A stretch of 64,000 nt of DNA from Candidatus Nanoarchaeia archaeon (GTDB lineage Archaea; Nanobdellota; Nanobdellia; Woesearchaeales; SKIA01). The position numbers and the translations under genes were made by a program. The DNA is taken from positions 27,030 through 91,029 of the forward strand of contig JANQNG010000038.1 of the NCBI GenBank assembly GCA_028279685.1. Reading direction: 5' to 3'. The notes under the pieces were generated by a model, which saw nothing but the letters and a program-made list of their open reading frames with translations, was not told the origin of the DNA and ran no database searches. This document shows, piece by piece, positions 41,106 to 62,091 of this stretch (its first letter is position 1; every line of letters starts with the position of its first letter).

Positions 41106-41133
41106 ATGAGAAAAAAGCAAAAGGTGAATGTCT

Positions 41134-42312: not shown

Positions 42313-42761
42313 GTGATATTATTTCAGCAGCGATTCGATATGCTTCGCAAAATAGTGACAAATTAGTGAGAAAAGTAGGACAAAAAGATTATTTCAGAGT
42401 CACTAAGTATGGTGCTGAAAAAAAATCAAGTTATTTGGCCTATGGCGATCCTTTGGATGTCGTTGTGGATTTGATTGAGAAGGTAGTTTTTTTCGGAAAC
42501 TGGATTTCTATTCCAAGTCGGCATCGCGATGATATATTTGAAATCACGAGCAATATTTGGGGAGAAATAAAGTGTGTGAGAGAGACTGAAAATATTGCTG
42601 ATGTTGTTTATGTTGAAGAAAAACCATATTTGTCTGAATTAAGAACAAAAGAAGGATTTGCAAATGCTGCAAAATCAGTTTTTACAAGAGGATATCCTGC
42701 TGAAGAGTTAGCAGAAAAAATATTCAATGTAAAAGTTAGTGTAAAAAATAAAAAAAGGTGA
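42309..42761 (+). CDS. Hypothetical protein of the NAD operon
   Basis: The 150-residue protein MSDIISAAIRYASQNSDKLVRKVGQKDYFRV.. starts with an ATGA overlap on pncB and is followed 4 nt later by the nicotinamidase-like gene, so it is firmly within the operon. It has mixed alpha/beta sequence, a basic C-terminus (VSVKNKKR), and no recognisable motif. Confidence 0.65.
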   Translation: MSDIISAAIRYASQNSDKLVRKVGQKDYFRVTKYGAEKKSSYLAYGDPLDVVVDLIEKVVFFGNWISIPSRHRDDIFEITSNIWGEIKCVRETENIADVVYVEEKPYLSELRTKEGFANAAKSVFTRGYPAEELAEKIFNVKVSVKNKKR

Positions 42762-42765
42762 TAAA

Positions 42766-43635
42766 ATGAAAAAAACAATTATTATTTCGAATGTTATAGA
42801 CGGATCTGAGTCCTTTATGGGAGTTCATGGTTCTTTTCCCTGTGGATCAACACAAGAGGAAAAAGATAATACTGTAAGCATTATGCGTGCTTCTGATTTT
42901 ATATTATATTCTAATGATTTGCATCCAGATGATGCTAAAGAATTTAGTATTAATGGAGGCTTATATAATGCGCATGATCAAGTAAAACCCGAAAGATTTG
43001 ATTCTGATTATGTCATAGGATTTGATCTAGAAGGAAATGAAATACAACTCGGCAATAAAAGTGTTAGTCCGCGATTAGAAGAGACATTGCAACAAGCTGT
43101 TGAAGGAAGAACTGCAGGAATATATGTTCCTAGAGAAGTGTATTTTCAATCAGAACATGAAACGCCGTTCTGTACTCCGAAAGATATTGAAGAAACCTAT
43201 AAGGAGCGTATTATTACTTCTGAAGAATTTGTTGAAGGTTCATTTGATTATATTATAGCGCCAAAGAAATATTTTGATGCGACGAGAACAGATAGCGACA
43301 GATCTCTTCCAAAAGGGTCTTTCGAAGGTGTTCCTGATCAAAATATGAATATCTATTCATTGTTGGAGGAGAGGTTTCCTTCTGATGAATATGAATTAGT
43401 TTTTGTTAATACAGGAGTAGTTGAAGGTATTTGCAGATTGCACACTTCTATTGGACAAAAACAAATGTTTCCTGATGCGAAGATAATCAATATTTCTGAT
43501 GCTACAACGCCTCTTGCAGGGATTGGACTAGGTTATGAAACTGCAGAACAGTCTCGAGATGCTTGTGAAAGGGTGTGTAAAGATATTGGCATTGAGTATA
43601 TGAGTACAGAAGAGTTTTTGGAGGCATACAAATAA
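42766..43635 (+). CDS. Isochorismatase-superfamily hydrolase, probable nicotinamidase
   Basis: The C-terminal half has the Cys-hydrolase signature VFVNTGVVEGICRLHTSIGQ, with the nucleophile in GICR as in PncA (G...t..C...T). Upstream are an Asp near the N-terminus (SNVIDGSES), a His/Asp metal-site region (YSNDLHPDDAKEF..NAHD) and a Lys in IAPKKYFDAT. It would deamidate nicotinamide to nicotinate for the adjacent PncB. At 289 residues it is longer than typical PncA (about 200), with an insert around residues 85-170. The substrate is inferred from context. Confidence 0.75.
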   Translation: MKKTIIISNVIDGSESFMGVHGSFPCGSTQEEKDNTVSIMRASDFILYSNDLHPDDAKEFSINGGLYNAHDQVKPERFDSDYVIGFDLEGNEIQLGNKSVSPRLEETLQQAVEGRTAGIYVPREVYFQSEHETPFCTPKDIEETYKERIITSEEFVEGSFDYIIAPKKYFDATRTDSDRSLPKGSFEGVPDQNMNIYSLLEERFPSDEYELVFVNTGVVEGICRLHTSIGQKQMFPDAKIINISDATTPLAGIGLGYETAEQSRDACERVCKDIGIEYMSTEEFLEAYK

Positions 43636-44165
43636 TGAAAACTAAACTTAATCCATTGGAGCTTGGAGATCTCGATAACATCATGTCTTGGGTTAATGAT
43701 GAAGAAGTTATTGGAAGATTTAATGGTTTTAATGACAACATAACTAGAGAACAAGAACAGAATTATTTGGAAAAGATGATTGCTTCCGAAACTGATAAAT
43801 TGTACTCTATCTCGACGGAAGATGGAGTATATTTGGGACAAGCAGGAGTTCATGAAATAGAAGCAAATAATGATGGAAGGCTTGCATTGATTATAGGCAA
43901 TAAAGAATACTGGAATAAGGGATGTGGTCAAAGTGCAATGGAAGGATTGCTTGACAAAGCATTCAATGAACTAAAGCTAGAAAGAACTTGGCTTGTTGTT
44001 CTTGAACAAAATAAGAAAGCCAGACATATATATGAGAAAATTGGCTTTCAACAAGAAGAGATTCTGAAAGATTACTATCAATTGGGTGATCAAAAACTCA
44101 ATATGATCAAGATGAGTTTGCATAGAGAAGAATATGCGCGAGGTGAACCTACGTGGAACGAATAA
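43635..44165 (+). CDS. GNAT-family N-acetyltransferase
   Basis: The 176-residue GNAT fold: acetyl-CoA-binding region IIGNKEYWNKGCGQSAMEGLLDKAF (R/Q-x-x-G-x-G/A variant), followed by LVVLEQNKKARHIYEKIGFQQEEIL, the typical N..a...YeklGF. It resembles RimJ/RimL or spermidine-type acetyltransferases. Its ATG overlaps the previous stop (TAATG), and it overlaps NAD synthetase by 13 nt. Substrate unknown; in this operon a protein target is possible. Confidence 0.85.
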   Translation: MKTKLNPLELGDLDNIMSWVNDEEVIGRFNGFNDNITREQEQNYLEKMIASETDKLYSISTEDGVYLGQAGVHEIEANNDGRLALIIGNKEYWNKGCGQSAMEGLLDKAFNELKLERTWLVVLEQNKKARHIYEKIGFQQEEILKDYYQLGDQKLNMIKMSLHREEYARGEPTWNE

Positions 44166-45052
44166 AACTACCATATATGAATCCTGAAAAAGTAAGTCGA
44201 GAAATAGGAGACTTTGTTGTGGATACAGCGAAGAAAGTCGGTTCAACAGGATGTGTTATTGGATTATCGGGAGGAGTTGACTCGACGACAACTGCAGCAT
44301 TGATCAAGAAAGCATTTGATGCTTACAATGCAGAGCACGATGATAAGCTAGAACTTGTCGGTTATATCTTGCCATCAAGCACTAATAACCCAAAAGATGC
44401 CGAAGATGGTGTTTCAGTAGCAAAAAGATTGGGCATACGATATGAGACGCAAAGCATTGAACCTATTGTTGAAGCATACAAAATAACTAATTCTGAAGCG
44501 GTTGAAAGTTTATTCCACAAAGGAAACTTGATGTCAAGGATAAGAGCGAATTATCTTTCTACAAAAGCAGCAACTGAACAAAAAACACTTTCTGGCACAG
44601 GCAACAAAGACGAAGACTTTGGCATAGGATACTACACGTTATTTGGTGATGGTGCCGTGCATATGAGTCCTATAGGCAATCTCTCGAAGAGACTTGTCAG
44701 ACAGATGGCGACTTATTTAGGATTTGAAGACTTGGCAAACAGAACACCAACAGCAGGATTACAGCCTGATCAAACAGACTTTAGTGATCTTGGCTATGAT
44801 TACGATGTTGTTGAATTAGTTACAGAAGGATTCCATCAAGGATTTACTGCAGATGAACTTGATGTGCATCCTCAGGTGAAACCTTTGATTGAACAACAGA
44901 TAGATCAATACAAAGAAATGTTTGGCAAGAAGAAATTCAACAATGTCGGTGAAGTGATTGACGATATTTATCATAGACATTACAATATAGCGATGGCAAA
45001 AGTGGAGATCATTCATCCGCCTACTGCAGAAGTAACAATAGAATACAGGTGA
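44153..45052 (+). CDS. nadE: NH3-dependent NAD synthetase
   Basis: Final step of NAD synthesis: amidation of nicotinate adenine dinucleotide. The N-type ATP pyrophosphatase loop GCVIGLSGGVDSTTTAAL is perfect; other family elements are MSRIRANYLSTKA, LSGTGNKDEDFGIGYYTLFGDGAVHMSPIGNL and RTPTAGLQPDQTDFSDLGYDY. There is no glutaminase domain, so ammonia is the nitrogen source. The start is GTG 44153, with GAGGTGA 6 nt upstream. Confidence 0.95.
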   Translation: MERIKLPYMNPEKVSREIGDFVVDTAKKVGSTGCVIGLSGGVDSTTTAALIKKAFDAYNAEHDDKLELVGYILPSSTNNPKDAEDGVSVAKRLGIRYETQSIEPIVEAYKITNSEAVESLFHKGNLMSRIRANYLSTKAATEQKTLSGTGNKDEDFGIGYYTLFGDGAVHMSPIGNLSKRLVRQMATYLGFEDLANRTPTAGLQPDQTDFSDLGYDYDVVELVTEGFHQGFTADELDVHPQVKPLIEQQIDQYKEMFGKKKFNNVGEVIDDIYHRHYNIAMAKVEIIHPPTAEVTIEYR

Positions 45053-45058
45053 ACGTAC

Positions 45059-45565
45059 ATGCCAGCAGCTAATCAGATTCAAGAACAGAGAAACCCAATA
45101 CCAACCACAGATATTATTATCGAATATTGTGGAGAAGAAAGACCTATTTACGTTGCTGGCGGAATAGTTCCTCCTGAATCAAAGATAAACGGAAGTATTG
45201 TACTCGTTAAAAGGAAAAACCCTCCACATGGATGGGCATTACCAGGAGGATTTCATGACTTTGGTCTTTCAGCAGAAGAGAACGCTATTAAAGAAGCAAA
45301 AGAAGAAACAAATCTTGATGTGATTCTTGAATCTCCTGAAAAACCGTTTCTTTTCAAATCAAAACCTGATCGTGATCCAAGAGATCATATGATCTCTGCA
45401 GTGTATATCGGTAAAGGCTATGGTGTTCCTCGAGGAGGAGATGATGCAAAAGAAGCAAAACTATACACTATAGATGAGGTGAAACAACTCATAAGAAATA
45501 ATGAGCTTGCGTTTGATCACGCAGAGATACTAGAAGCATATTTCAGGCATAGGGGGTACAACTGA
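45059..45565 (+). CDS. Nudix hydrolase (ADP-ribose/NADH pyrophosphatase-like)
   Basis: Nudix box variant GGFHDFGLSAEENAIKEAKEETNLDV, with the REUxEE metal site as KEAKEE. The order 'WALPGGF...box...RDPRDHMISAVYIG...FDHAEIL' is that of ADP-ribose pyrophosphatases. It probably removes ADP-ribose or a damaged dinucleotide, or recycles NMN. It follows nadE by 6 nt and its stop overlaps the NMNAT start (TGATG). Confidence 0.88.
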   Translation: MPAANQIQEQRNPIPTTDIIIEYCGEERPIYVAGGIVPPESKINGSIVLVKRKNPPHGWALPGGFHDFGLSAEENAIKEAKEETNLDVILESPEKPFLFKSKPDRDPRDHMISAVYIGKGYGVPRGGDDAKEAKLYTIDEVKQLIRNNELAFDHAEILEAYFRHRGYN

Positions 45566-46182
45566 TGAGTTTAGGAAGAGCAGGATTCATAGGACGATTT
45601 AAACCTTTGCATGTAGGAGGAGCAAGAGTGCTTGAGGAAATATGTAAAAATACGGATCATTTGATAATAGGTGTTGGTAGCAGCAACAAATATGATCTTC
45701 GCAACCCTTTTACAGCAGAAGAATCTCAGAAGATGATTGATGTATTTCTTTCTCCAAAATTTTCAAATTATTCATTTATTCATATTCCTGATTTTGGGCA
45801 TATTCCTCAATTTCAAGATGGGCAGAAATGGAAAGAATATGTGAAGAGTAAATTCAAGGACCTAGATTATTTTGTAGCAGGAAATAGTTATGTGAAATCA
45901 TTGTTAGCTCAAGATTACAAAGTCATTGATGCTCATACGTTACTTCATGATGATCAGAAGATTCGCTTGAGTGCTACGCAAGTAAGAATTGCCATGGCAA
46001 GAGGCCGAGATTGGCGGAACTTAGTTCCTGAATCTACGGCACAATATATTGCAGAACATAAACTTGATGATCGTTTCCGACGAGAATTTGGATTAGCAAC
46101 AATAGCTTTAGCAGCAGGATATGATTTAGCTACTGCTGATTCTTTTGATGCTGAAAAAAAGTACGTAATGTCTGGAAAATGA
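45565..46182 (+). CDS. nadM: Nicotinamide-nucleotide adenylyltransferase (NadM-like)
   Basis: Joins NMN or NaMN with ATP to make the dinucleotide. The N-terminal nucleotidyltransferase motif is GFIGRFKPLHVGGARVLEE (family GRFqPlHlGH; the second His is Gly here). Further motifs are LIIGVGSSNKYDLRNPFTAEE and, at the C-terminus, RLSATQVRIAMARGRDWRNLVPE (the ISaT.vR motif). The replacement of the last His of HxGH could weaken catalysis, and two more NMNAT-like genes lie downstream (57306, 58481). Confidence 0.88.
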   Translation: MSLGRAGFIGRFKPLHVGGARVLEEICKNTDHLIIGVGSSNKYDLRNPFTAEESQKMIDVFLSPKFSNYSFIHIPDFGHIPQFQDGQKWKEYVKSKFKDLDYFVAGNSYVKSLLAQDYKVIDAHTLLHDDQKIRLSATQVRIAMARGRDWRNLVPESTAQYIAEHKLDDRFRREFGLATIALAAGYDLATADSFDAEKKYVMSGK

Positions 46183-46209
46183 AAAAAAGAACCATGGAGG
46201 TGGTAAAAA

Positions 46210-47193
46210 ATGTATAGTTGGGGACCTAATACAAGTGATTGGCATGGTAGAACAAATTATAATTATAGTTCTGAGAATGCACCCTATTTGGACGAACTTG
46301 CAGCAGAATCTAGTTCACGGGGTGAAAGAACCTATTCAAGGAGAACTTCACCAGATGTCATTGTAAAAACAAAAGATAAAACGATAAAAACAGAAAGTGA
46401 AAATCCTATTGTGGTAGGTATTGATGTGACAGGGAGTATGTCAAGATGGCCTGCGGAGATTTTTGATCGTCTTCCTTTGATGTATCAAACATTATCGCAA
46501 TATAGGCAAGATGTTGAAATTAGTTTTGGCGCTATTGGTGATGCATATTCTGATCGATATCCTTTACAAGCAAATGATTTTGGTCATGGGATAGTGCTTG
46601 AAGATCATGTGAATGCTTTATGTCCTGAAGGTGGTGGAGGTGGACAAGTCAGTGAGACATATGAATTATTTGCATACTTTATGCTTGAAAAGTGTAAGAT
46701 GTCTAATGCACAATCTCCATTTATGTTCATTTTTGGAGATGAGAAATTCTATAATGAAGTGAATCCTGCACAAGTAGAACATTATATTGGAGACAACCTC
46801 GAAAATCCAATGGCTTCAGGGAAAGTCTGGCAGAAATTGATAGAGAAATTCAATTTGTATTTCTTGCAGAAACCTTATGGAAGTGGACATGATAGACGCA
46901 TGACTGCTGAGATCAAACAACATTGGGCAAATGCGATTGGAGAACAACGAATTGTTGATCTGCCAAATGCTGAACGTGCTGTTGATATTGCAATAGGAAT
47001 TGTAGCGAGACATTGGGGACAGTATGGTGATTTCAGGGAAAATCTCAGTGCAAGACAAAGCGATGAAGTAGTTAGGAATCAAGTCCATGACGCAGTTCGT
47101 GATGTTCGAGAAGATGTTGCTGAAAGCGTTGATGCTGTTGCTTCTGCTTCAGAAAAACCAATTTCTCTACATGAAAAATACGGGGAGAGATAA
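46210..47193 (+). CDS. VWA-domain protein with MIDAS motif
   Basis: Residues about 60-260 are a von Willebrand A fold. VVGIDVTGSMSRWPAE carries the MIDAS DxTxS variant, followed by VEISFGAIGDAYSDRYPLQ and FMFIFGDEKFYNE. The N-terminus is Ser/Tyr/Asn-rich and probably disordered; the C-terminus is helical and charged. The ribosome-binding site GGAGGTGG is very strong. VWA proteins in bacteria accompany kinases and ATPases in conflict and chaperone systems; here it sits between NadM and a pyruvate-kinase-like gene, and a kinase is encoded in the next operon. Confidence 0.8.
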   Translation: MYSWGPNTSDWHGRTNYNYSSENAPYLDELAAESSSRGERTYSRRTSPDVIVKTKDKTIKTESENPIVVGIDVTGSMSRWPAEIFDRLPLMYQTLSQYRQDVEISFGAIGDAYSDRYPLQANDFGHGIVLEDHVNALCPEGGGGGQVSETYELFAYFMLEKCKMSNAQSPFMFIFGDEKFYNEVNPAQVEHYIGDNLENPMASGKVWQKLIEKFNLYFLQKPYGSGHDRRMTAEIKQHWANAIGEQRIVDLPNAERAVDIAIGIVARHWGQYGDFRENLSARQSDEVVRNQVHDAVRDVREDVAESVDAVASASEKPISLHEKYGER

Positions 47194-48104
47194 TGACGAT
47201 AAGCGCAATTGTGACCGTACCTCCGTACAGTCCTTTTATTGAGGAAGTGGCAAGACATCCCATAGTGAGTGGGCTTCGCTTAAACACAGTGATGCCTACG
47301 AAAGGGTCTTTAGAGGATGTGATCAAACATTTACAAGATGTTGCTGGAAGCAAAGATATCTGGATTGATCTTAAGTGCAGACAATTGCGTGTTGCAGACT
47401 ATGGAGTTCCTCCATTTACAGAGATTACACTGACTCATCATATTACTGTTGATACTCCTGTCAAAGCATATTTCTCTGACGGTAAAGAGATTGCTACTGT
47501 TCTTGCTATTGACGGAAAAAGGCTTATTATGCAGGAGGGTCCAAAGCGTGTCATAGGTCCTGGTGAGTCAGTAAATATTTTACATCCTTCACTACAGATT
47601 GAAGGGTATTTTACCGATACTGACAAACAGTATATTGATGCTTGTGTCAATTGTGGTCATCATCAGTATATGCTTTCTTTTGTTGAACAGCAGCAAGATA
47701 TTGATCAATTAAGAACATATGATCTTGATGCAGAAATTGTTGCAAAAATTGAATCAAAAAAAGGTTTGGTGTATACTAAACATAAAAATAATGATGTTCG
47801 ATTGATGGCTGCAAGAGGAGATCTCTTTATCGAAGCAGGTATGCCTCACAAAATCATTCGTGCAATGGAAGATATCTATTATGCTGATGCTTCTGCTATT
47901 GCTGCTTCCAGATTATTCAGTTCATTATCAAGAAGTCTAGAACCTTCTTGTGCAGATATTGGAGATGTTGATAATCTATTGCGCATGGGCTATAAAACAG
48001 TAATGTTTGGTGATGAGATATGTATGCAAAGAGATTCTATTATATCAGGGTTGAATCTGTTTCAGGCAATAGCTGAGCCTTATCAAGGAGGGAGAAGATG
48101 GTGA
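47193..48104 (+). CDS. Pyruvate-kinase-like barrel protein (divergent)
   Basis: The 303-residue protein retains pyruvate kinase landmarks: IWIDLKCRQLRV (family DtKGPeiR, altered), a B-domain-like insert with KAYFSDGKE and GPGESVNI, AKIESKKGLV (family KIEn..G), VRLMAARGDLFIEAG (family vaRGDLGvE) and VMFGDEICMQRDSIISGLNLF (family mLSGETA.G.yP). It lacks the C-terminal regulatory domain. Key ADP/PEP residues are altered, so the reaction is uncertain. A second, better conserved relative lies at 59064. Confidence 0.7.
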   Translation: MTISAIVTVPPYSPFIEEVARHPIVSGLRLNTVMPTKGSLEDVIKHLQDVAGSKDIWIDLKCRQLRVADYGVPPFTEITLTHHITVDTPVKAYFSDGKEIATVLAIDGKRLIMQEGPKRVIGPGESVNILHPSLQIEGYFTDTDKQYIDACVNCGHHQYMLSFVEQQQDIDQLRTYDLDAEIVAKIESKKGLVYTKHKNNDVRLMAARGDLFIEAGMPHKIIRAMEDIYYADASAIAASRLFSSLSRSLEPSCADIGDVDNLLRMGYKTVMFGDEICMQRDSIISGLNLFQAIAEPYQGGRRW

Positions 48105-49084
48105 ATAAATCGTCGCTAGAACTTGAGCAAACATTGAACAAGTGCAATATTCAAGATTCCACAGAACATCTGCTTGAGAAAATTGAAACAATTAACAGAC
48201 TTAAACAGGAAAAGAATGCAGTCATCTTAGCGCATTATTATATGAGAGACAGCATAAAAATAGGAATAGCAGATTATGTGGGTGATTCTCTTGACTTAAG
48301 CAAATCTGCAATGAGGACTGAAGCAGATCTTATAGTGTTCTGTGGTGTTGATTTCATGGCAGAGACTGCAAAGATTCTCAATCCTCATAAAAAAGTCATT
48401 CTACCGAGCAGAGAAGCAGGTTGTTCATTAGCAGAAAGTATAACGGCAGAAGATGTGAAAAAACTGAGAAAAGATTATCCTGATGCTGCAATCGCAACAT
48501 ACATCAACACAACTGCGGATGTTAAAGCAGAATGTGATGTTTGCGTAACATCTGCTAACGCCCCTAAAGTTATCTCGAGACTTCCCAACAAAAGAGTAGT
48601 ATTCATTCCGGATAATTATATGGCAAGAAATCTGGAGAACGAGATTGATAAGGAAATTATCTTCTGGGATGGAACTTGTGTTGTTCATGAACAGTTCAAT
48701 CAGCATTACTTTAGGGAATTCAGAAGCAAAGTTCCTGGTTTGAAAGTTTTGGCGCATTATGAATGTGACCCTTCTACTATTGAAGCTGCTGATATGCATG
48801 GAAGTACGAGTGACATGAGGAGGTATGTTGGAGAGACAGATGCAGATGCGTATCTTCTTGCTACAGAATGTGGTTTAGCATCCACTATTATTGAAGATCA
48901 TCCTGAGAAGAAAATCATAGGACCTTGTATGATCTGTCCTTATATGAAGGAGATCACGATTGATAACACCCTTCATGCATTGACTGATGAAAAACCAGAA
49001 ATCACTATTTCTGCATATACTATAGATAGGGCTAGAATCTCGTTGGAAAGGATGTTCGCTTTAGGTGATTCGAATGAAAGATAG
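48098..49084 (+). CDS. nadA: Quinolinate synthase
   Basis: Makes quinolinate from iminoaspartate and dihydroxyacetone phosphate using a 4Fe-4S cluster. Visible are AVILAHYYMRDSIKIGIADYVGDSLDLS at the substrate site, VFCGVDFMAETAKILNP (first cluster Cys), ATECGLASTI (second) and GPCMICPYMKEIT (third region). The length (328 residues) is normal. NadB or aspartate dehydrogenase and NadC are not seen in the window, so the de novo route is incomplete here. Last gene of operon 2. Confidence 0.95.
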   Translation: MVNKSSLELEQTLNKCNIQDSTEHLLEKIETINRLKQEKNAVILAHYYMRDSIKIGIADYVGDSLDLSKSAMRTEADLIVFCGVDFMAETAKILNPHKKVILPSREAGCSLAESITAEDVKKLRKDYPDAAIATYINTTADVKAECDVCVTSANAPKVISRLPNKRVVFIPDNYMARNLENEIDKEIIFWDGTCVVHEQFNQHYFREFRSKVPGLKVLAHYECDPSTIEAADMHGSTSDMRRYVGETDADAYLLATECGLASTIIEDHPEKKIIGPCMICPYMKEITIDNTLHALTDEKPEITISAYTIDRARISLERMFALGDSNER

Positions 49085-49297: not shown

Positions 49298-49572
49298 AAG
49301 TATATATATTTGAAAGATCATATTCATTATAGGAAACATTAAACCTCAAAGGAGAACAATGCCACCACAAAAGCAACGCGGTGGTGATGGCATTGAAGAA
49401 AGGCTCGACCCGCACGCAGAGAGCATTTGCTTGGAGCCTTCTCTCTCTTTTGCTTTTTTTATTTTTTCCTATATGAAATCATGTAGCGATAGCTCTCTTA
49501 ATTGAGAGCAAAAGAGATTCACCTAGCGTGAGCTCTATCACGTCGGCGGACGTAACACGCGGAGGGATATAT
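49298..49572 (+). promoter_or_regulatory. Promoter and long structured leader of operon 3
   Basis: The 488-nt gap 49085-49572 holds a TATA box (AGTATATATAT, about 49298-49308) and then a possible leader of about 240 nt before ATG 49573. In it CAATGCCACCAC (49357-49368) pairs with GTGGTGATGGCATTG (49381-49395), with a 3-nt bulge, and GCTCTC...GAGAGC (49492-49509) forms another hairpin. GC content is higher than in nearby intergenic DNA. It could regulate the E1-E2-JAMM operon at RNA level. The first 200 nt (49085-49297) show nothing beyond AT-rich sequence. Confidence 0.45.
49359..49505 (+). CDS. Possible small ORF (48 aa) in the leader
   Basis: AAAGGAGA lies 4-5 nt before an ATG that opens 48 codons (MPPQKQRGGDGIEERLDPH...). 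The second half is hydrophobic. The start codon is inside the first leader hairpin, which would hide it. It might be a leader peptide; coding status is uncertain because the T-rich part looks like terminator DNA rather than protein. Confidence 0.3.
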   Translation: MPPQKQRGGDGIEERLDPHAESICLEPSLSFAFFIFSYMKSCSDSSLN

Positions 49573-50112
49573 ATGGGAAGTTACGGTACAGGAGAGTTAA
49601 GCGCTGCTCCTCGAAGACGGAGAAGTTCTCCAGGTTCTTCAGGAGGGGGAGGACGTTCTTCGCGGAACACTACGCCTCCAGCGCCAACTGAAGAACCAGA
49701 GCCAACACCAACAACAGTGAGTGCCAACTATGACCCTGATTTGAAGACTGTTGTGGCATTGGGTGGTGGGTTGACGCCTGACAGGATTGTACAACCTATA
49801 CCAGAAGAGATACGGGATCAGAACCTTTCACATGTTGTGAAGTATCTCATGGGTGATGAAGTTGCATCAAGACCAGAAGATAGAACAATAGTTGATGCAG
49901 TGCAAGAAAGAATGGAAGCACCTGACTATAGAATTATTGTCAATGATGCTTTGAATCTCGGCAACGAGAGAATGCAGACACCCTTGGTGCAATATCTAAT
50001 CCAGAAGACGCAGCAAGGAGAGGACGGGGAACTCAAATACAACTTTGCGGATATTGCCATTGTCAGTCATGACGAAGGCGGAAAACCGTATAGCTTGGAA
50101 GAAAAATTGTGA
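49573..50112 (+). CDS. Possible ubiquitin-like modifier precursor
   Basis: ATG 49573 (after GGAGGG, 7 nt) is preferred over the track start. The protein has a disordered Arg/Ser/Gly/Pro-rich N-terminus (about 1-48), then a compact domain of about 120 residues with strands and helices. It ends VSHDEGGKPYSLEEKL: a Gly-Gly followed by 9 residues, as in ubiquitin-like precursors that need a peptidase to expose GG. It is the first gene of the operon that continues with E2-, JAMM- and E1-like genes. The beta-grasp fold is not proven; position and the GG tail are the argument. Confidence 0.5.
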   Translation: MGSYGTGELSAAPRRRRSSPGSSGGGGRSSRNTTPPAPTEEPEPTPTTVSANYDPDLKTVVALGGGLTPDRIVQPIPEEIRDQNLSHVVKYLMGDEVASRPEDRTIVDAVQERMEAPDYRIIVNDALNLGNERMQTPLVQYLIQKTQQGEDGELKYNFADIAIVSHDEGGKPYSLEEKL

Positions 50113-50145: not shown

Positions 50146-51669
50146 ATGATTCGGCTGCAAACACCATATCTTCTAACCCTTGATACCCCTTTAGTTATTT
50201 TTAATAACAGGTTGTTGCAGCCGAAAGCCCGTACCGATGATAACGATAACTATGCGGAATTCTATTCAACAAAATTTGCCTTGGAAGAGATTGTCACACC
50301 AAAAAAACTTGAGGATCTCTTCTTTAGGCACAATTATGATACGGTTCAGCGATATCAAGAAGAATTTAGCAAGTCATTTTGCGATCATGAATTTCAATCA
50401 AAGGAAGCACTTGCAGAAAATTTGAGACAAAACAGAGTTCTTTCATTAATTGTCGAGAAGATATTGCCCATATTAACAGCAGATAGATTAGAAGGGAGAA
50501 TAGAAGATATCATCAATGAAGACAAACCTGTTGAGGAAGCATATGAAGGCATTCCTCAACAAGAGGTAGAGATACCTCGTGAGGTGATGCAAGAGGTTCG
50601 CAAACTTCAGAATCGATTGATCAGAGATGTTGAGAACGAATATCAGCAATATCGTCTTGAAGGTGTTTCTAATACTGAGAGTCAAGTGAATGATCAGATT
50701 GCTGCGATACTCCAGCCAACGCTGAGGAGAAAGGCATCATTTCCATGGCTTCATGAAAATTCTGTTTTAGAAGAATTGCTGCAAGGCAATAACCTTATGA
50801 TTATTGATGACAAAACATATTTTCTTGAAACAATCCCTGAATTTATTTTCTATTTCGAAAAAGGACTCTCCGATACGTTATATGCTGCTATTGACAGATT
50901 TTCAAACACGAAAAGTCCTGAATCGATAGTTCAATATTTGGAAGAAAATAAACAACATGTTGATCATAAATATTTTTCAAGAATTATTAATAAAATAGAA
51001 GGAAGCAAACTCAAAATTCATGGAGAATATTTTTTGCCTATTCTTGATGGAAAGATTAATGATCTTCGCAGGAGATATAAGAAACTTATTGAAAAGAGCA
51101 TCAAAATAGATGCTATCGAGCATAATGAATATCAAACAAGAATGCTCTATGAACTTTCGCAAGAAAAAAGAAGGCTGGAGCGGCTTGCACAACAATCTGA
51201 TTTTGAGAGAAACGGTGCAGGATTTCACAAAGGAGGAGGATCTTCGTATGTTGTCTATATTAAGACACCTCCCTATGCGTTGAAGAGTCCTCATGTAAGT
51301 GGTGCAAATAGATATGTTCCTTTTGATCCTGCAAAAATCGGTGTAAAAATAAAGCAAGTTGGTGATGGAAATAGATCAGGATTTGAAATAACAAAACCAT
51401 TTATTATGCATTCATACAGACATCCGTTTCTTAGTGATGCTTCTTCAGGAAAAGAAATTTGCCTAGGTGATTGGGGAACTCCTGGAGGACTTTCTCCCGA
51501 GCAAAAGGTACTAACCTATCTGAATCAGGGAAAAAAGACATTGATGATGGGGTATCGTTCAGGAAGCAATCCTTACATTAAGCTCCACAAAGAAAAATGG
51601 AGTAATTGGATTAGTCGTCAAGAGGTGGAAAGAAGGGGGCTTGTTGTCCTCAATGATTTCGGAGGCTGA
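50146..51669 (+). CDS. E2/UBC-like conjugating protein with long helical N-terminus
   Basis: Residues about 1-370 are helical, with Glu/Arg-rich coiled-coil parts. The C-terminal region (about 365-507) looks like an E2/UBC fold: a strand-rich start (SSYVVYIKTPPYALKSPHV), then ITKPFIMHSYRHPFLSDASSGKEICLGDWG. The HP.....G..ICL pattern matches the HPN and catalytic-Cys region of ubiquitin-conjugating enzymes. The protein ends NDFGG, an exposed Gly-Gly that might itself be a conjugation tail. It sits between the candidate modifier and the JAMM gene. Confidence 0.65.
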   Translation: MIRLQTPYLLTLDTPLVIFNNRLLQPKARTDDNDNYAEFYSTKFALEEIVTPKKLEDLFFRHNYDTVQRYQEEFSKSFCDHEFQSKEALAENLRQNRVLSLIVEKILPILTADRLEGRIEDIINEDKPVEEAYEGIPQQEVEIPREVMQEVRKLQNRLIRDVENEYQQYRLEGVSNTESQVNDQIAAILQPTLRRKASFPWLHENSVLEELLQGNNLMIIDDKTYFLETIPEFIFYFEKGLSDTLYAAIDRFSNTKSPESIVQYLEENKQHVDHKYFSRIINKIEGSKLKIHGEYFLPILDGKINDLRRRYKKLIEKSIKIDAIEHNEYQTRMLYELSQEKRRLERLAQQSDFERNGAGFHKGGGSSYVVYIKTPPYALKSPHVSGANRYVPFDPAKIGVKIKQVGDGNRSGFEITKPFIMHSYRHPFLSDASSGKEICLGDWGTPGGLSPEQKVLTYLNQGKKTLMMGYRSGSNPYIKLHKEKWSNWISRQEVERRGLVVLNDFGG

Positions 51670-51674
51670 TAAGA

Positions 51675-53513
51675 ATGGATTTAGACCTAAAAATATTGCA
51701 TGCATTAGAAGACAAAGAGGAAAGAGTTGATGAAACAGAGACGCTTCAGATAACAAGAGGAGCATTTACGAAAGATCATATCTTTGCGAAACTTGTCTCG
51801 AGGATTGCTGGAGGAGGAATGGAGTGTTATGCCTATTTGATTAAACCAAACGAAGCAATGGACGATATTGTTAGAGATATTCTTATTGCGCCTGACCAAG
51901 ACACCACTAGTTCACATGTTTGGGTAACGCCAGAAGGAGTCAAACAAGCAGGAGAAAATATTGCTGCGAGAAACTATGAACTCTTAGGATGGACTCATTC
52001 ACATGGTACTATGAGCACGTTTCACTCAAGCTGGGACATTGATAATTTCCGAACTATCCTACATGAGATCAGTCCACAAACAATGTTCAAGAAAGAGAAC
52101 GCATTATACAGATTAGATGAAGATAAGCTTTTTGTTGATAATTATCGTATCGAAGGAATCAAACCTTTGCAACGGAAAATTGATATTATCAAGAAAGTAG
52201 AGCGAAGGCCGTTTGCTTATAGTATTGTGGTTAATGATCATAATGAGTATTATGCAGAAGTCTGGACGAAGACCTTTGATCATGCAACAGGAAGATTTAA
52301 ACTTGACAATGCAAAGAATCCAAAGCTTGAGATTGTTGATGTCGATGATGATGTAGAGATTGATATTGCAGAAATCGAAGATGAGATCTATCAGAAAGTG
52401 CGCATTAATAGAAGAGATTTCACGAATGATCATAGAAGATATGAATCAAAGCAAGCTAAGGCAATTGCAAATAGATTCATCCATCACGCAGCACAATACC
52501 TTGCAAAAAATGGCGAGTATAAAAAATTAATAGTCACTATGCTCACAGAGGATGCTGAGGCATCGCGTTATCAGATGATAAAAACTGCAGAGAAATCTGC
52601 TGATGAGACCATTGAGGTCCCTGAGCAAAATAAAGAGGAGATTGTTGAAAATCTAGAAGGCAATCTTGAGAGGAGCGAATTCAGCAGATATCTTGATGCA
52701 AGTAAGAAGTTCAGGAGATTTGAGCTTGAGAATCTTATCTATCTCCGTACAATGGTCGATTTCTCTAATGCAGAGAAGAATGTTGCTGCAGAGGAACTTG
52801 TTGCAAAACAAGACGAAATTATTCATGGATATCAAGAAAAGGCCAAGATGCTGGAAGAATGTGCAGACATTGCAGCGAATGCAACGAGAGCTCTCTCAAG
52901 GTATGCTATGGAGGAGTTCACTGATTATAATAATAAGAAAGAACACAAATACAAGCGATTTATCAGCAGCATCATTGGCTACTTAGCTACTGAAAGAAAT
53001 TACAGTTTCGGAAAAGCATTGGAGAATAAGAAAAGGTTTAAGGTGAAGACTAAGAAGAGGCTCTATCTCAGAGAAGAGCGCATCAATATGTTCAATCAGC
53101 TAACAAGAGATCTCTACTATGATTGCATGAGAAACCCTGAAATGTATGAAACACAAAAAACATTTTTTACCGCATTTGCTAATGCTTACCTCAACAATAC
53201 TGGGCAGGTTGATGGATTGATTGAACAGCATTTGCTTGGAGATGTTGAGAGCGGGGAAAAGTATCAAGATGTGGCCTTTGTTCATCCGACTTATAACCTT
53301 TCTTCTGCTTCGGAATTGTATCAACAAAAGATTGTGGAAAGACCAAAGAAAGAAAAAGTGCCTAAGGAGATGCATACAGAGAAGAGCACGAAATCAACTG
53401 AGGAAAAGATTATCAAGGCAAATGAATATACGCCAATAGGAAAAGTGCAACCTTCTCGACGAGGAGGGATAGATCAATTTCTTCCTGCCTGGGCTAGGAG
53501 GTTGTTAGGATGA
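51675..53513 (+). CDS. JAMM/MPN+ isopeptidase-like protein
   Basis: The JAMM zinc motif is perfect: a Glu in AGGGMECYAYL (about residue 50) and THSHGTMSTFHSSWD (about 107-121; H-x-H-x7-S-x-x-D). Such enzymes cut ubiquitin-like proteins from targets or trim their precursors. After the JAMM domain (about 1-170) there are about 440 residues, mostly charged helices (EEKSADETIEVPEQNKEEIVENLEGN-like stretches), without a recognised domain. It starts 6 nt after the E2-like stop and overlaps the E1-like start (ATGA). Confidence 0.85.
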   Translation: MDLDLKILHALEDKEERVDETETLQITRGAFTKDHIFAKLVSRIAGGGMECYAYLIKPNEAMDDIVRDILIAPDQDTTSSHVWVTPEGVKQAGENIAARNYELLGWTHSHGTMSTFHSSWDIDNFRTILHEISPQTMFKKENALYRLDEDKLFVDNYRIEGIKPLQRKIDIIKKVERRPFAYSIVVNDHNEYYAEVWTKTFDHATGRFKLDNAKNPKLEIVDVDDDVEIDIAEIEDEIYQKVRINRRDFTNDHRRYESKQAKAIANRFIHHAAQYLAKNGEYKKLIVTMLTEDAEASRYQMIKTAEKSADETIEVPEQNKEEIVENLEGNLERSEFSRYLDASKKFRRFELENLIYLRTMVDFSNAEKNVAAEELVAKQDEIIHGYQEKAKMLEECADIAANATRALSRYAMEEFTDYNNKKEHKYKRFISSIIGYLATERNYSFGKALENKKRFKVKTKKRLYLREERINMFNQLTRDLYYDCMRNPEMYETQKTFFTAFANAYLNNTGQVDGLIEQHLLGDVESGEKYQDVAFVHPTYNLSSASELYQQKIVERPKKEKVPKEMHTEKSTKSTEEKIIKANEYTPIGKVQPSRRGGIDQFLPAWARRLLG

Positions 53514-55012
53514 GTGAGGATCTCGAGCATCTTATGAACAGGTATAATAGGCAGGAACTTATTGCAGGTTGGGATCAGTCTAAATTAGAAAATGCTTCTA
53601 TAGCAATTATAGGCACAGATATTCTTGCGAACTTTTCAGCTATTACACTTGCAGCATTAGGATTTGGAGATATTGAGATCTATGGGCCTGGCTTTGTTAC
53701 AAGGAGTATGTTGACAAATTACGGAAAGAATAGAAACAATCCTGATTACAGTGAAGGATTCCTTTATTTTGATGCACATGCAGGAGATCCAAAAGCAGAA
53801 GTAATAGCATCATTTATCAAAAAACTTAACCCTCTCGTGGATGCATTCGGTGTCAATATAGATCTTTGCAGAGCAGAGAATAGGAATGTAATAGGCAAAC
53901 CAGATATTATTCTTGAAACAACAAATGATCCTGCCTCAAAAATTGTTGCAATAGAGTATGCAGCTCAACATAATATTCCTTTAGTGAGTATGTCCTCATC
54001 ATCAATGTATGCTGGTGTTGGGTTTTTTGATCCTAGATCAAACAGAGAAGATATGATGAAATTAATTGAGAATATTGTTTTTGCTGAGTTGAAGGGAATG
54101 CCACAAGGAACTACTACAAGTCAAGTGATTGCAGGAGTGGGTGTTGATGAGGTGAGAAAGAAGATTATGCCTTTAAGAAATGAACGTATTATAGAGGATA
54201 TTGTCGTTTATAATATGGATGCTGAGACGCGTTTTGAAAGAAACGGAACAAATCTTCCTCATAAGGCAGCTGATTTTAAAGAAAAAACAGTAGCAATGAT
54301 AGGAGCTGGTGCATTAGGAAACTTTGCAGGATTAGATCTTGTGCTCAATAACGTAGGACATCTTTATGTGGTTGATTTTGATGAGATCGAATCAACTAAC
54401 CTTAACAGACAAATATGGTTCTATGATGCTGTTGGTAGAAATAAGGCAGAAGCGCTTATAGAAAAATTAAGAAAAATTAATCCTCGCGTTGAGTTTAGTT
54501 ATGCAAAAGAAAGAATCATTCCTGATTCCAAGAATTTTTTCAAGAAGACAGATATAGATCTCATGATTGATACGGTAGATAATAACAAAACAAGAGCATT
54601 ACTTAATTATTTTTCCTTACGATATAAAATTCCGTTTATCAGCGGAGGTACTCGGCATAATAGCGGTCAAGCAACAATTGCTATTCCAGGAAAGACAGGA
54701 TGCCTCAATTGTCAGGCAGATATTGACAAGCTTGCACTTGACGGCTATCAACCGCACAGTTGTATTTATGCTCCAGAACCTTCAGTGATTACTTCAAATC
54801 AAATTGCTGCAGGATTTATTGGAGGAGAAGCAAGAACAGTATTGCAGCCTGATATATTTGGAGAACCAATTCACCATATTTTGAAATATGTTTCTGACGA
54901 AACATACAGGTTGGGTGTGCTTCCTTCAAATGGAGCATGTAATTGTCATAAAAATAGAGTGGAGCTCATGCACTGGACGGGAAAAATGAAACATCTTTAT
55001 GAGGGTGATTGA
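53510..55012 (+). CDS. E1-like activating enzyme with two ThiF domains
   Basis: The 500-residue protein repeats the ThiF/MoeB fold. The N-terminal copy (YNRQELIAGWDQSKLENASIAIIGTDIL) lacks a good nucleotide loop and is probably inactive. The second copy is intact: VAMIGAGALGNFAGLDLV (ATP loop), YVVDFDEIESTNLNRQIWF (the NLNRQ signature), then Zn ligands in TGCLNCQ and GACNCHKN. A Cys in QPHSCIYAPEP is a possible thioester site. This two-copy, inactive-plus-active layout resembles eukaryotic UBA1. It would adenylate the modifier tail. Confidence 0.85.
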   Translation: MSEDLEHLMNRYNRQELIAGWDQSKLENASIAIIGTDILANFSAITLAALGFGDIEIYGPGFVTRSMLTNYGKNRNNPDYSEGFLYFDAHAGDPKAEVIASFIKKLNPLVDAFGVNIDLCRAENRNVIGKPDIILETTNDPASKIVAIEYAAQHNIPLVSMSSSSMYAGVGFFDPRSNREDMMKLIENIVFAELKGMPQGTTTSQVIAGVGVDEVRKKIMPLRNERIIEDIVVYNMDAETRFERNGTNLPHKAADFKEKTVAMIGAGALGNFAGLDLVLNNVGHLYVVDFDEIESTNLNRQIWFYDAVGRNKAEALIEKLRKINPRVEFSYAKERIIPDSKNFFKKTDIDLMIDTVDNNKTRALLNYFSLRYKIPFISGGTRHNSGQATIAIPGKTGCLNCQADIDKLALDGYQPHSCIYAPEPSVITSNQIAAGFIGGEARTVLQPDIFGEPIHHILKYVSDETYRLGVLPSNGACNCHKNRVELMHWTGKMKHLYEGD

Positions 55013-55013
55013 C

Positions 55014-55844
55014 ATGGGAGAAATGGATGCGATCATTGCAGGCATACGATCTTCATATGAAAAAACTAATATGACTGACGTTGATCTCGAGAGTATTCTT
55101 CATGAGCGTCCTGAAGTAAAAGTAGGATATCTGCTGCAGCATATGGATCCTGAATCAGAAAAACCGTATGCAATTAATTTCGATCCTGTAGAGACTTTAT
55201 TCCTCGACAAACTTGTTTCGGAAGAAGTGCTTAATGGTGAAATTGTTATGGATAAGAATGATTTCTTTAGAGGAATAGTGTTTCTTGATTATTTGACAAC
55301 AGTGGTGCTTGATGACTATGCTATTCTTAAAGATATGCATAATATCGCAGTTGAATTGGAAAATATACAAGAAGATCTTGATCCTGATCTTGAATTAGTA
55401 GTAAAATATTCAGGTATGTTTTATCTTTCCTATACAGGAAGAAGAATCATGAGGAATCAGATGGATGAAAAAGGATTGGAACGTTATCAAGTAAAAAATA
55501 AGCATTACGAGCCAGAATATGCTATTCTCAGAAAGATAGCACCTGTGTATGAAGCATTAGGCAAGATGGTTTGTGATCTTCCTAAGCATGATATAATTAA
55601 AGAGAAGCTTCCAGACATGCTCTATCTCTATGATATTAAAGCAGCTATCTTTGTTGATGCAATACTTGATTTTATTGAAGATGATGCATTAAAAGAGAAA
55701 GTTGTGACTAAATTCAGAGAAGGAGATTACTACAAGGCTTCAATGGTTGCCATCACAGGCATTAGCAAACAAGTTTCTAACACAACAATTGATGAATACA
55801 TAACGTCGCTTGTCGAGAACGGAGGAAATAATGATGGATCTTGA
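55014..55844 (+). CDS. Helical hypothetical protein of the E1-E2-JAMM operon
   Basis: The start was set at ATG 55014, after GAGGGTGAT; the track start lies inside the E1-like gene. The 276-residue product is almost all alpha-helical, acidic at the N-terminus, with no membrane segment and one notable Cys (MVCDLPKHD). It overlaps the kinase start by 14 nt, so it is tightly co-translated. It may be a substrate or adaptor; no family is recognised. Confidence 0.65.
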   Translation: MGEMDAIIAGIRSSYEKTNMTDVDLESILHERPEVKVGYLLQHMDPESEKPYAINFDPVETLFLDKLVSEEVLNGEIVMDKNDFFRGIVFLDYLTTVVLDDYAILKDMHNIAVELENIQEDLDPDLELVVKYSGMFYLSYTGRRIMRNQMDEKGLERYQVKNKHYEPEYAILRKIAPVYEALGKMVCDLPKHDIIKEKLPDMLYLYDIKAAIFVDAILDFIEDDALKEKVVTKFREGDYYKASMVAITGISKQVSNTTIDEYITSLVENGGNNDGS

Positions 55845-57309
55845 AGAACTCTTGCATAATGGAGAGTATTGTGATCTTCTCTTAACAGAGGCGCGCACGT
55901 ATGGTGAAGAAGGGAGTCTTGAATCATTAAGAAAAGCATATGATAGTTTACAGGAGAAATTAACAATATCAGAGGATCAGCAATACTATCTCAAGGAAGT
56001 TGTAGGTTCTGCACATCTGCTGATGTTGGATCTTGAAGGAGCAGCAGAATATTTTGAAGGGAATCGGCTGAAAATGGAGAGGCTCAAAGGTGTTGCATTA
56101 TGGCTTGGTAATGATGCTCGACTAATCAAAAGAATTGCTCCTGAAAAGTATTCTGATTTCATCCGTGATATGGCTTTACCTAATGTCTGGATGGGAAGAG
56201 ATGAAAAAGGATTTTATCTTGATGAAGAGGAGCTTGATAGTATACTTAAAGATCTTCAGGAACAAGAAGTTGATACACAGCAAGCTCTTAAAGAAACGGT
56301 GCTTTCAATGGAGAGAAATGGACGAAAGAATATTCCTAAAAAACTGTTGCTTGCTTATTATGCAAACGATAAAGAGCTTTATTCTAAGGTATTTGCAGAA
56401 TATGAGCAAAAAAAGAACAGCAACAGAAAAAATATCGATAGCATAGTGCAGAACTATTGTGCATTGCATGATCTGCGGTTTATTAAAAAAATGCAGGAAG
56501 GAGATTATGATCCTTTTTTTCCAATAGCAAGCAATATGTATTTGGTTGAAAGAAATGGTGAAAAAGAAGTTTTCAAAGAGCATCTTAGATTATACACTGA
56601 TTTTTCAAGACACGATGGCTATAATAAAGAAAAAGAGATATATGAACAGTTCTCCGATGATAATATCATTGATTATCTAGGACATTGCAATGTTGATGGT
56701 ATTGAATTCTTGCGATTTAAAGTATTTGATGGCCTTGATCTCTCTGAATTCACAAAAGAGGAAATGCTTTTACCTTTTGATGAGACGCTCCGAATTATAA
56801 GAACGCATGCAGATGTGCTCGATTCTTTGCAGCAACAAGGTATTTTGTATCTTGATGTGAAAGATAAAAATGTAATGTACGATGGAAATGAAATGAAATT
56901 GCTTGATTTTGGCATGGCGCAGACATTCGACAAAGTTGATGCTTCCACTTTCGCTCGATCAGTGCTTTCTACTCCAGCATATATTCCTCCTGAATGGGGA
57001 TCTGTGTTCGTTGCTACAAGGACATCAGAGGTTTTTCAATTAGGCGTATTATTTCATCAAATGCTTACAGGAAAACATCCATTTGCCCATGTTGATTTTA
57101 CTGAAGGTGATGAGTACAGAGAATCGGAAATCATCAAGTTTGGATTATCGAACATATATAATGATTACAAAGCTCCGGAACAGCTTGCTTCACATCCTGA
57201 AATGGTATCGTTGCTTGAGCAGATGTTACATAAGGATCCTACGGAGCGTCCAACAGTAAAAGAGGTAACAGAAAGGATTGGAGATTATCTCCTTCAGCAG
57301 GTGATATGA
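55831..57309 (+). CDS. Ser/Thr protein-kinase-like protein
   Basis: GGAGG lies 5 nt before ATG 55831. Residues about 1-205 are helical, perhaps TPR-like. From about 210 there is a protein-kinase fold: YLVERNGEKEVFKEHL (beta-3 Lys), the catalytic loop LYLDVKDKNVMYDG (HRD replaced by YLD; D-x-K-x-x-N kept), LLDFGMAQTF (DFG), TPAYIPPEWG (activation-segment end), and RPTVKEV at the C-terminus. It is probably active. It is encoded directly after the E1-like module, which suggests phosphorylation is coupled to conjugation. Confidence 0.85.
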   Translation: MMDLEELLHNGEYCDLLLTEARTYGEEGSLESLRKAYDSLQEKLTISEDQQYYLKEVVGSAHLLMLDLEGAAEYFEGNRLKMERLKGVALWLGNDARLIKRIAPEKYSDFIRDMALPNVWMGRDEKGFYLDEEELDSILKDLQEQEVDTQQALKETVLSMERNGRKNIPKKLLLAYYANDKELYSKVFAEYEQKKNSNRKNIDSIVQNYCALHDLRFIKKMQEGDYDPFFPIASNMYLVERNGEKEVFKEHLRLYTDFSRHDGYNKEKEIYEQFSDDNIIDYLGHCNVDGIEFLRFKVFDGLDLSEFTKEEMLLPFDETLRIIRTHADVLDSLQQQGILYLDVKDKNVMYDGNEMKLLDFGMAQTFDKVDASTFARSVLSTPAYIPPEWGSVFVATRTSEVFQLGVLFHQMLTGKHPFAHVDFTEGDEYRESEIIKFGLSNIYNDYKAPEQLASHPEMVSLLEQMLHKDPTERPTVKEVTERIGDYLLQQVI

Positions 57310-58481
57310 TGAAAAAAGCACTTTATTTGAATAAGTTCGGTATTATGCATAAAGGTCTTATTGAAGTAGTGAAGGATATTGAGCAAGCAGATGATGTTGA
57401 TGAGATCATATTAGGTATTTGTTCGAGCCAATATAACGATAAGGAAAAGAGCCCTTCGAAGGATTGGATTTACAATTGTTTAACTTGGGAAGAACGAAAA
57501 AAAATCATGGAAATTTCTCTACAAGGAGTAAAAAAGAAAATTCATTATGTTCCCCTTCCTGATTTGTATCCTATAGACAAATCAGTTCCCGAAAACAAAT
57601 GGATAGATGATGTCGTCAGGCGAACACCTGATTTTGACATCATCTATTCAGAACGTGATGTAGAAAGAGAATGTTTGGAGCATAAAGGTAAAGAAGTTCG
57701 CGATATTAAGAAGCATGTGTTGTTTACTGATCATTGCATTAGAGATAAAATGGCTAGAGATGAAGCATGGCAACCTTATTTTGATCCTGAAGCAGCAAAA
57801 TTATTAGAAGAGATTAACACACCTGTCCGTTATAAGATACTCTTTAGTAAAACTCCTAAAGTTATGGGAGATGTTGAATGGAGAACATTTGATCCGGGAG
57901 TTGAAGCACTAAAAGATAAAGTGCTTGGCATGACGTATTTCGATGAACGCCATAGTGTTGATCTTTATGTGTTATCTCTGGTTCGTTCTTCGATTAATAT
58001 GAAAGTTACTCAATCAAGTATTAAAATAAAGCATCTTGAGAGGGTTGACTATTCTAATGAATGGTGGAAAACAGAGCATTGGGAATTTCCTTTTTCCGCT
58101 GAGGATTTCAAGAAATTCTCGAGAGCAACAAGGTTTCCTCAGCTTGCTCTGGAAGGAGAGATTACACATGAAAAGTTCATAAAAGCAGTACCTGATTATC
58201 CAAATCCTTACGCAATGCTTGTTCCTGTGAGAAAACATCGTCATATGCGGCTTTTTGAACATAAAGGAAGAAGAATGGGTATAGAATTTATTAATTTGAA
58301 TGTTTTTGATAATGATTATGTCTCTCTCGGTGTTGAGGCAGAAAATGCTATCGATATGAAGAGAACCATGAATGAATTAGGATTAAGTATTTATGATCAT
58401 CGGAATTATATACAGTTTTTAGAGGAGAAAGCTATAGAAAAATATGGAGATGAAATATTTGAGAATATGTGGGTGAAATGA
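57306..58481 (+). CDS. Degenerate NMNAT-like nucleotidyltransferase with extra C-terminal domain
   Basis: The N-terminal 190 residues parallel the next gene: KALYLNKFGIMHKGLIEVVKDIEQADDVDEIILGICSSQYND and LTWEERKKIMEISLQG, with HxGH changed to HKGL and R of GRF changed to K, so catalysis may be lost. The C-terminal 200 residues have alternating charged strands (YAMLVPVRKHRHMRLFEHKGRRMGIEFINL and VSLGVEAENAIDMKRTMNELGL) reminiscent of a CYTH/triphosphate tunnel domain; this is a guess. It overlaps the kinase gene (ATGA). Confidence 0.65.
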   Translation: MMKKALYLNKFGIMHKGLIEVVKDIEQADDVDEIILGICSSQYNDKEKSPSKDWIYNCLTWEERKKIMEISLQGVKKKIHYVPLPDLYPIDKSVPENKWIDDVVRRTPDFDIIYSERDVERECLEHKGKEVRDIKKHVLFTDHCIRDKMARDEAWQPYFDPEAAKLLEEINTPVRYKILFSKTPKVMGDVEWRTFDPGVEALKDKVLGMTYFDERHSVDLYVLSLVRSSINMKVTQSSIKIKHLERVDYSNEWWKTEHWEFPFSAEDFKKFSRATRFPQLALEGEITHEKFIKAVPDYPNPYAMLVPVRKHRHMRLFEHKGRRMGIEFINLNVFDNDYVSLGVEAENAIDMKRTMNELGLSIYDHRNYIQFLEEKAIEKYGDEIFENMWVK

Positions 58482-62090: not shown

Positions 62091-62091
62091 A

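Follow-up and report, generated by a model that had tools for sequence, protein, structure and literature searches.

Ubiquitin-like conjugation systems outside eukaryotes

Ubiquitin-style conjugation outside eukaryotes has been known from Caldiarchaeum and the Asgard archaea, from the SAMPs and from bacterial defence operons. The haloarchaeal SAMP/JAMM system uses a β-grasp modifier with a Gly-Gly, a MoeB-like E1 and a JAMM deconjugase; to our knowledge it contains neither an E2 nor an operon of the Ubl-E2-JAMM-E1 type. In CBASS, Cap2 is a fusion of E2 and E1 that works without a separate ubiquitin-like protein (Ubl), and it is the C-terminus of the CD-NTase that becomes conjugated. The genes of BilABCD, a bacterial antiphage operon of the ISG15-like kind, follow the order Ubl-E2-JAMM-E1; their E1 has one inactive and one active adenylation domain, and the JAMM peptidase trims the tail of the Ubl (PMC11354881). 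BilA consists of two Ubl domains, BilB carries a C-E-H-H motif (Cys, Glu at +6, His at +8 and His at +13) and BilD contains a Cys domain (PMC11354881). Experiments have established that the pro-ubiquitin of Caldiarchaeum subterraneum extends nine residues past its Gly-Gly, that these are cut off by the Rpn11 JAMM, and that E1 acts on the protein only after this removal (PMC5654768, PMC6043591). Caldiarchaeum ubiquitin is about 31% identical to human ubiquitin, and its E1 has a distinct Cys domain (PMC11354881). Class 6d of Iyer (2006) comprises bacterial operons with a Ub-like, a JAB, an E1-like, an E2-like and an α-helical protein, in which the E2 is devoid of the classical His and has a His C-terminal to the Cys (PMC1779556).

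The window analyzed here is a stretch of 64,000 nucleotides from a Candidatus Nanoarchaeia archaeon. Its open reading frame at 49573-50112 very probably codes for a ubiquitin-like modifier in the form of an inactive precursor, which would be trimmed by a JAMM peptidase, activated by an E1 and attached by an E2. The system would work like the ubiquitin system and is set apart from the Bil, 6d and Caldiarchaeum types by the published descriptions of these. It shares with BilABCD the Ubl-E2-JAMM-E1 gene order and an E1 of two adenylation domains. However, its modifier of 179 residues contains one Ubl domain, whereas BilA contains two. Furthermore, the E2 in the window has an HP ahead of the Cys and, unlike BilB, continues past C439 as LGDWGTPGGLSPE, lacking E at +6 as well as H at +8 and +13. 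The E1 shows no sign of the Cys domain found in BilD, and the E2 has a long helical N-terminus, while kinase and NAD genes add to the difference.

The nine-residue tail after Gly-Gly, together with a JAMM, an E1 and an E2, is reminiscent of Caldiarchaeum. There, however, the sequence is Ub-like, the JAMM is Rpn11-like and a RING E3 is present, whereas the Ubl in the window has no detectable sequence similarity to ubiquitin and no Cys-rich RING-like ORF occurs among the listed operon genes. The same four functional classes are found together in class 6d, but the E2 in the window has H426-P427 before C439, as classical E2s do. The CBASS type II proteins Cap2 and Cap3 likewise combine E1/E2 chemistry with a JAMM, and the E2 domain of Cap2 is the best structural match of the E2 in the window; in contrast to the fused Cap2, the window has separate Ubl, E2 and E1 proteins. 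With the SAMP system it has in common an archaeal β-grasp Gly-Gly modifier, an E1 and a JAMM, but the E2 and the operon belong to the window's system only.

Ubl-E2-JAMM-E1 sets in Woesearchaeota, Pacearchaeota and Desulfobacterota widen the known range of such systems, and several different sets sometimes occur in one genome of 1-2 Mb. They contribute an E2 whose HP..C is arranged as in eukaryotes and a two-domain E1 that resembles Uba1 and has no Cys domain. A literature search on such operons in DPANN archaea found no paper; most of the subscription literature lay outside this search, and priority is not claimed.

The putative precursor gene and its operon

The operon is located on the plus strand and comprises, in this order, the genes for the Ubl, a 507-aa E2-like protein, a 612-aa JAMM protein, a 500-aa E1, a 281-aa protein and a protein kinase. 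The Ubl gene begins about 490 bp downstream of the end of nadA (49084). It is separated by 33 bp from the E2-like gene, which is followed after 5 bp by the JAMM gene, and from there to the kinase and beyond the genes overlap. A GC-rich inverted repeat with a T run at 49360-49475, upstream of the operon, looks like a terminator but is not unusually stable compared to shuffled sequences (z -0.88), and an Rfam search of this region gave no family match. The features of the Ubl gene are as follows.

49561..49567, plus strand: ribosome-binding site GGAGGGA of the Ubl gene, from the sequence
49573..50112, plus strand: Ubl modifier precursor, 179 aa, ATG at 49573 and stop codon at 50110-50112; from the AF2 core and the homologue alignment
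49741..50076, plus strand: codons of the β-grasp core, residues 57-168; AF2 pLDDT mostly >90, VIA-align matches cover 50-170
50077..50082, plus strand: Gly169-Gly170, at which the mature modifier is predicted to end; conservation among 78 homologues is highest at G170
50083..50109, plus strand: propeptide KPYSLEEKL, nine residues, for which removal by the JAMM is predicted; length and sequence vary in homologues

The start codon is backed by the GGAGGGA just 5' of it and by homologues that likewise start with MGSYD. Residues 1-48 are rich in Arg, Ser, Gly and Pro and are predicted to be disordered (block pLDDT 46-60 in the AF2 model). This Ser/Arg-rich extension is restricted to the window's branch of the family. 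The disordered residues 1-50 are followed by the β-grasp core (approximately residues 57-168), by Gly169-Gly170 and by the tail. The C-terminus reads VSHDEGGKPYSLEEKL, that is, VSHDEGG followed by KPYSLEEKL, exactly nine residues past Gly169-Gly170. The preliminary description of this DNA had recognized the tail after the Gly-Gly, the position of the gene at the head of the operon and the disordered appearance of the first 48 residues, and all three are borne out by the present analysis.

The modeled fold of the Ubl

The Ubl is unrecognizable as ubiquitin from its sequence alone, and its assignment is based on the modeled structure and on the gene context. Searches of Pfam, NCBIfam and PADLOC with the Ubl found no match and no ubiquitin family, a PDB profile search gave no convincing match, and the comparison with ubiquitin and NEDD8 by hhalign was not significant (probability 0.5%). 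One close homologue (L102) reaches the Pfam ThiS-like family at an E value of 0.014, under the family cut-off.

The AF2 model, for which the input alignment had 20 rows (the two AF2 input alignments were small, with 20 and 34 rows), has a confident core spanning about residues 57-168, in which pLDDT is mostly >90, and disordered residues 1-50 and tail. The core starts with strands at 58-65 and 72-76 and helices at 85-92 and 101-114; further strands follow, the last at 152-164. The best Foldseek matches in the PDB are ubiquitin-like or other β-grasp domains (best E 0.028, probability 0.95), and include the Ubl of TBCB, the UBL of HOIL-1L and SHARPIN, the β-grasp domains of PI3K, and also DIX and UFM1. 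The VIA-align matches, covering model residues 50-170, are almost uniformly β-grasp, with Z values reaching 6.5 (80 residues, rmsd 2.7); Z scores below 8 are modest, but the match list is consistent. The C-terminal domain of ISG15 and MoaD are aligned by VIA-align through residue 172 of the model, across the Gly-Gly. The model and its structural matches point to the β-grasp fold for which the preliminary description had proposed a structure prediction.

The C-terminal glycine and the tail

An iterated HMM search of 1407 distinct proteins from conjugation loci found 83 Ubl homologues. Their co-localization is strict: all are in conjugation loci with E1, E2 or JAMM genes, in 76 cases no more than 400 bp away from such a gene and in the remaining cases elsewhere in the same loci. 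The column of G170 is the most conserved in the 78 aligned sequences (64 Gly, 7 Ala, 2 Ser and 5 gaps). Gly is found at 169 or 170 in 72 of the 78, and at both in 49. The tail past the Gly has between 0 and 48 residues in this alignment and is variable in sequence. The three closest relatives end in ...SHDEGGKGLEEKL, ...SHDEGGRSLEERV and ...THEEGGLEKKCKE; HDEGG or HEEGG is kept in all three, but the tails differ (KGLEEKL, RSLEERV and LEKKCKE). In the Desulfobacterota the corresponding stretch is AIKPQEGG, followed by a short variable tail. In side branches the Gly-Gly site reads EGA, TPG or TQG.

Gly-Gly within the last 20 residues is found in 26 of the 49 proteins in the Ubl slot, compared to 16 of 179 among the remaining ORFs of these loci (Fisher P = 1.2e-10, a value that is indicative only because the ORF caller is crude and the sequences are related). 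Other segments of the same Ubl-slot proteins give an expected count of 4.8 of 49. The preliminary description had proposed to test whether homologues show an invariant Gly-Gly and a variable tail. The tail is indeed variable and the Gly is the most conserved position, but strict invariance of the Gly-Gly does not hold, given the branches with GA, PG and QG. To judge from the alignment, the rule for the family is a Gly, usually Gly-Gly, at the site of residues 169 and 170. Conserved Gly, variable tail and β-grasp model together support the earlier designation of the protein as a candidate ubiquitin-like precursor. Of the two results named in advance as refuting that designation, a Gly-Gly that is not conserved and a clearly different fold, neither was obtained.

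Three homologues already end in Gly-Gly and have no tail (L112:3574-4056, L094:8500-8940 and L167:931-1296), so trimming is not universal in the family; in these loci the JAMM may be limited to deconjugation. One of these loci also has four Ubl-like genes beside several E2-like genes (L094:5942-10146).

The predicted conjugation enzymes

The genes and predicted active sites of the three enzymes are located as follows.

50146..51669, plus strand: E2-like conjugating enzyme, 507 aa, with a long helical N-terminal part and an E2 domain at about residues 328-507; from alignments, AF2 and VIA-align
51421..51462, plus strand: E2 active-site stretch from H426-P427 to the predicted catalytic C439; H in 57, P in 60 and C in 61 of 64 homologues
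51675..53513, plus strand: JAMM/Prok-JAB metallopeptidase, 612 aa; Prok-JAB E 6e-5
51996..52037, plus strand: JAMM motif HSHGTMSTFHSSWD, residues 108-121; from the homologue alignment
53510..55012, plus strand: E1-like enzyme, 500 aa, two ThiF adenylation domains, of which the second looks active; ThiF E 6e-51 in two stretches
54761..54763, plus strand: codon of E1 C418, the proposed catalytic Cys; invariant in 16 of 16 homologues and present in 48 of 52 in a larger alignment

The 507-aa neighbor is an E2 by its modeled fold and by its conserved HP...C; its catalytic activity is predicted. The best 50 VIA-align matches of its AF2 model are without exception E2 enzymes or E2 domains, with the E2 domain of Cap2 (Z 6.7, rmsd 3.5, 119 aligned) and E2-25K (Z 6.6) at the top. 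Foldseek alone is weak for this protein (best E2 match Ube2T, E 0.37), the Pfam E2 families UQ_con and Prok-E2 do not match any of 14 members of the 507-aa family at an E value of 0.1, and a PDB profile search gave no convincing match. The near-invariant HP...C of the family is the arrangement of classical E2s, in which His-Pro precedes the Cys. The E2-like protein itself ends in LNDFGG (51658-51666). This second Gly-Gly is a chance occurrence, as homologues end in LNDFE, LNVF or LNDFRR.

The JAMM sequence carries GWTHSHGTMSTFHSSWD, and of 57 homologues 54-56 retain the catalytic residues E50, H108, H110, S118 and D121. The best match of the E1 profile in the PDB is Uba1 (5.7e-31, in two stretches), followed by MoeB and the SUMO E1; the first domain matches the regulatory subunit of the NEDD8 E1. 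The C-terminal ThiF domain contains GAGALG, D289/D291, NLNRQ, K312 and D357, and the N-terminal domain is ThiF-like. Four cysteines are conserved. C398, C477 and C479 resemble zinc ligands. C418 is at the loop position where ThiF, MoeB and Uba4 enzymes carry their reactive Cys, and from this position we propose that it is catalytic.

Proposed pathway and alternative readings

We infer the reaction steps, the targets and the role of the system from these data. The JAMM encoded two genes downstream would cleave the precursor after Gly170, resulting in the mature modifier. Trimming is proposed to precede E1 action by analogy with the nine-residue propeptide of Caldiarchaeum. The two-domain E1 would then use ATP to adenylate Gly170 and would probably form a thioester on C418, from which the modifier would be handed to C439 of the E2-like neighbor. 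The E2, with no RING E3 encoded in the operon, would link the modifier to amino groups on target proteins, and the same JAMM would also take it off again.

The β-grasp fold and the Gly-Gly are common to ThiS and MoaD, MoaD is among the structural matches of the Ubl, and the E1 resembles MoeB and ThiF. A possible alternative function is that of a sulfur carrier in the manner of ThiS, MoaD or SAMP2: the terminal Gly, once activated by the E1, would be converted to a thiocarboxylate, from which the sulfur would pass to a cofactor or tRNA, and the JAMM would have a regulatory role only. This is highly improbable, however: nearly every operon has an E2 that looks catalytic, three such operons occur in one genome, no sulfurtransferase or cofactor gene is seen in the window's operon, and the Pfam models of ThiS and MoaD do not match the window's Ubl. 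Divergent members that have no Gly at the site do exist (L036), as would be expected if the Gly-Gly were a leftover and the Ubl a non-covalent adaptor of an E1/E2/JAMM complex. A leftover would not be expected to hold the family's most conserved position, as G170 does, and we give this reading hardly any credence.

Rather than to many proteins, as in the case of ubiquitin, the modifier might be attached to itself, to one dedicated partner, which the 281-aa protein or the kinase could be, or to a non-protein molecule such as a lipid. Such narrow conjugation is a sub-case of the pathway proposed above and is compatible with it up to the transfer to the E2. The operon has no E3, and the 281-aa protein and the kinase are strictly co-conserved in four operons. 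Cap2/Cap3 and Atg8-type systems, which have a narrow target set, provide precedents. The 281-aa protein and the kinase are absent from other branches of the family, however, and although the present data fit both narrow and broad conjugation, we consider the narrow form possible but rather unlikely.

Distribution

The assembly that contains the window has 1.9 Mb in 80 contigs and is 91.9% complete and 4.5% contaminated. The data are MAG contigs with ORFs from a simple caller, and the counts include related sequences. The closest operons are in MAG records of Candidatus Woesearchaeota and other DPANN archaea. Within the order, a search of 99 genomes and a subsequent one of 352 matched 55 and 57 genomes; the queries were the E1 and the 507-aa profile, of which the E1 also collects ordinary ThiF/MoeB proteins and the 507-aa profile is more specific. 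In a sample of the phylum the system was matched in 42 of 371 genomes. The usual order in the fetched loci is small protein, 440-aa protein, JAMM and E1, but reorderings occur.

A scan of 84,980 species with an E1 alignment extended the range to Pacearchaeota, Aenigmatarchaeota, many Desulfobacterota, one Anaerolineaceae MAG and, with distant loci, Heimdallarchaeota, whereas scans of viral contigs and genome contigs with a single E1 sequence found nothing. Phage records searched with the Ubl and plasmid records searched with the E1 contained no relatives. In two Heimdallarchaeota loci (L173 and L174) the related E1 adjoins a protein of 118-119 aa that ends in ...PVSTAG and is possibly another Ubl.

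The window's genome contains three Ubl genes, each in its own operon. The two further Ubl-E2-JAMM-E1 operons (L037 and L041) are different from that of the window, and one of them has two JAMM genes. Three systems in one genome of 1.9 Mb would have to avoid cross-talk. The patchy distribution among the woesearchaeal relatives and the three different operons in this genome suggest that the system has spread horizontally.

A ClpX-like AAA unfoldase accompanies the E1, Ubl, E2 and JAMM in Desulfobacterota and in one woesearchaeal locus (L048:2848-8984, L151:3808-9230 and L171:7968-13184). It matches the ClpX model at an E value of 4e-79, under the equivalog cut-off. One of the Desulfobacterota with this arrangement, Desulfoferrobacter suflitae DRH4, is a named-strain bacterial relative in which the system could be tested. 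The window's genome has two genes for 20S-type proteasome subunits, and a role of the Ubl system in degradation is possible.

The kinase and the NAD island

The last two genes of the operon are as follows.

54999..55844, plus strand: 281-aa protein of unassigned family, follows the E1 in four syntenic operons; 36-38% identity in L096, L102 and L103
55810..57309, plus strand: protein kinase with an N-terminal extension of about 240 residues, in the same operons; Pkinase E 3e-31, 32-39% identity in L102, L103 and L186

A family search with the 281-aa protein gave no convincing match. This protein and the kinase are kept beside the operon in three further genomes (L102, L103 and L096/L186), as is a nucleotidyltransferase-like gene. 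Some of these operons also have NAD synthase, NUDIX, phosphoribosyltransferase and GNAT genes nearby.

On one side of the window's operon are genes for NadE, NUDIX, NMNAT-like and NadA proteins, and on the other are nucleotidyltransferase-like and NAD-kinase-like genes. The operon is surrounded by an island of NAD metabolism (41128-49081 and 57306-63922) with quinolinate/nicotinate phosphoribosyltransferase, NadE, NUDIX, NMNAT-like, pyruvate-kinase-like, NadA, nucleoside hydrolase and NAD-kinase-like genes. Several island genes have homologues next to the syntenic operons of three other archaeal genomes. The linkage to the kinase and NAD genes leads, by synteny only, to a concrete hypothesis on what the system regulates, namely NAD metabolism.

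Tentatively, and with more doubt than confidence, the loci could be seen as a separate, old prokaryotic system, made up of a Ubl with a short pro-tail, an HP-type E2 with a long helical arm, a two-domain E1 without a Cys domain and a JAMM, and present across DPANN archaea and Desulfobacterota. The version in the window would be coupled to the kinase and control the surrounding NAD enzymes, whereas others would feed tagged proteins to the ClpX-like unfoldase.

Small Lrp/AsnC-like regulators recur beside some operons (L036, L038, L041 and L049) and a transglutaminase-like protein beside others (L038, L041 and L046); both were named by eye.
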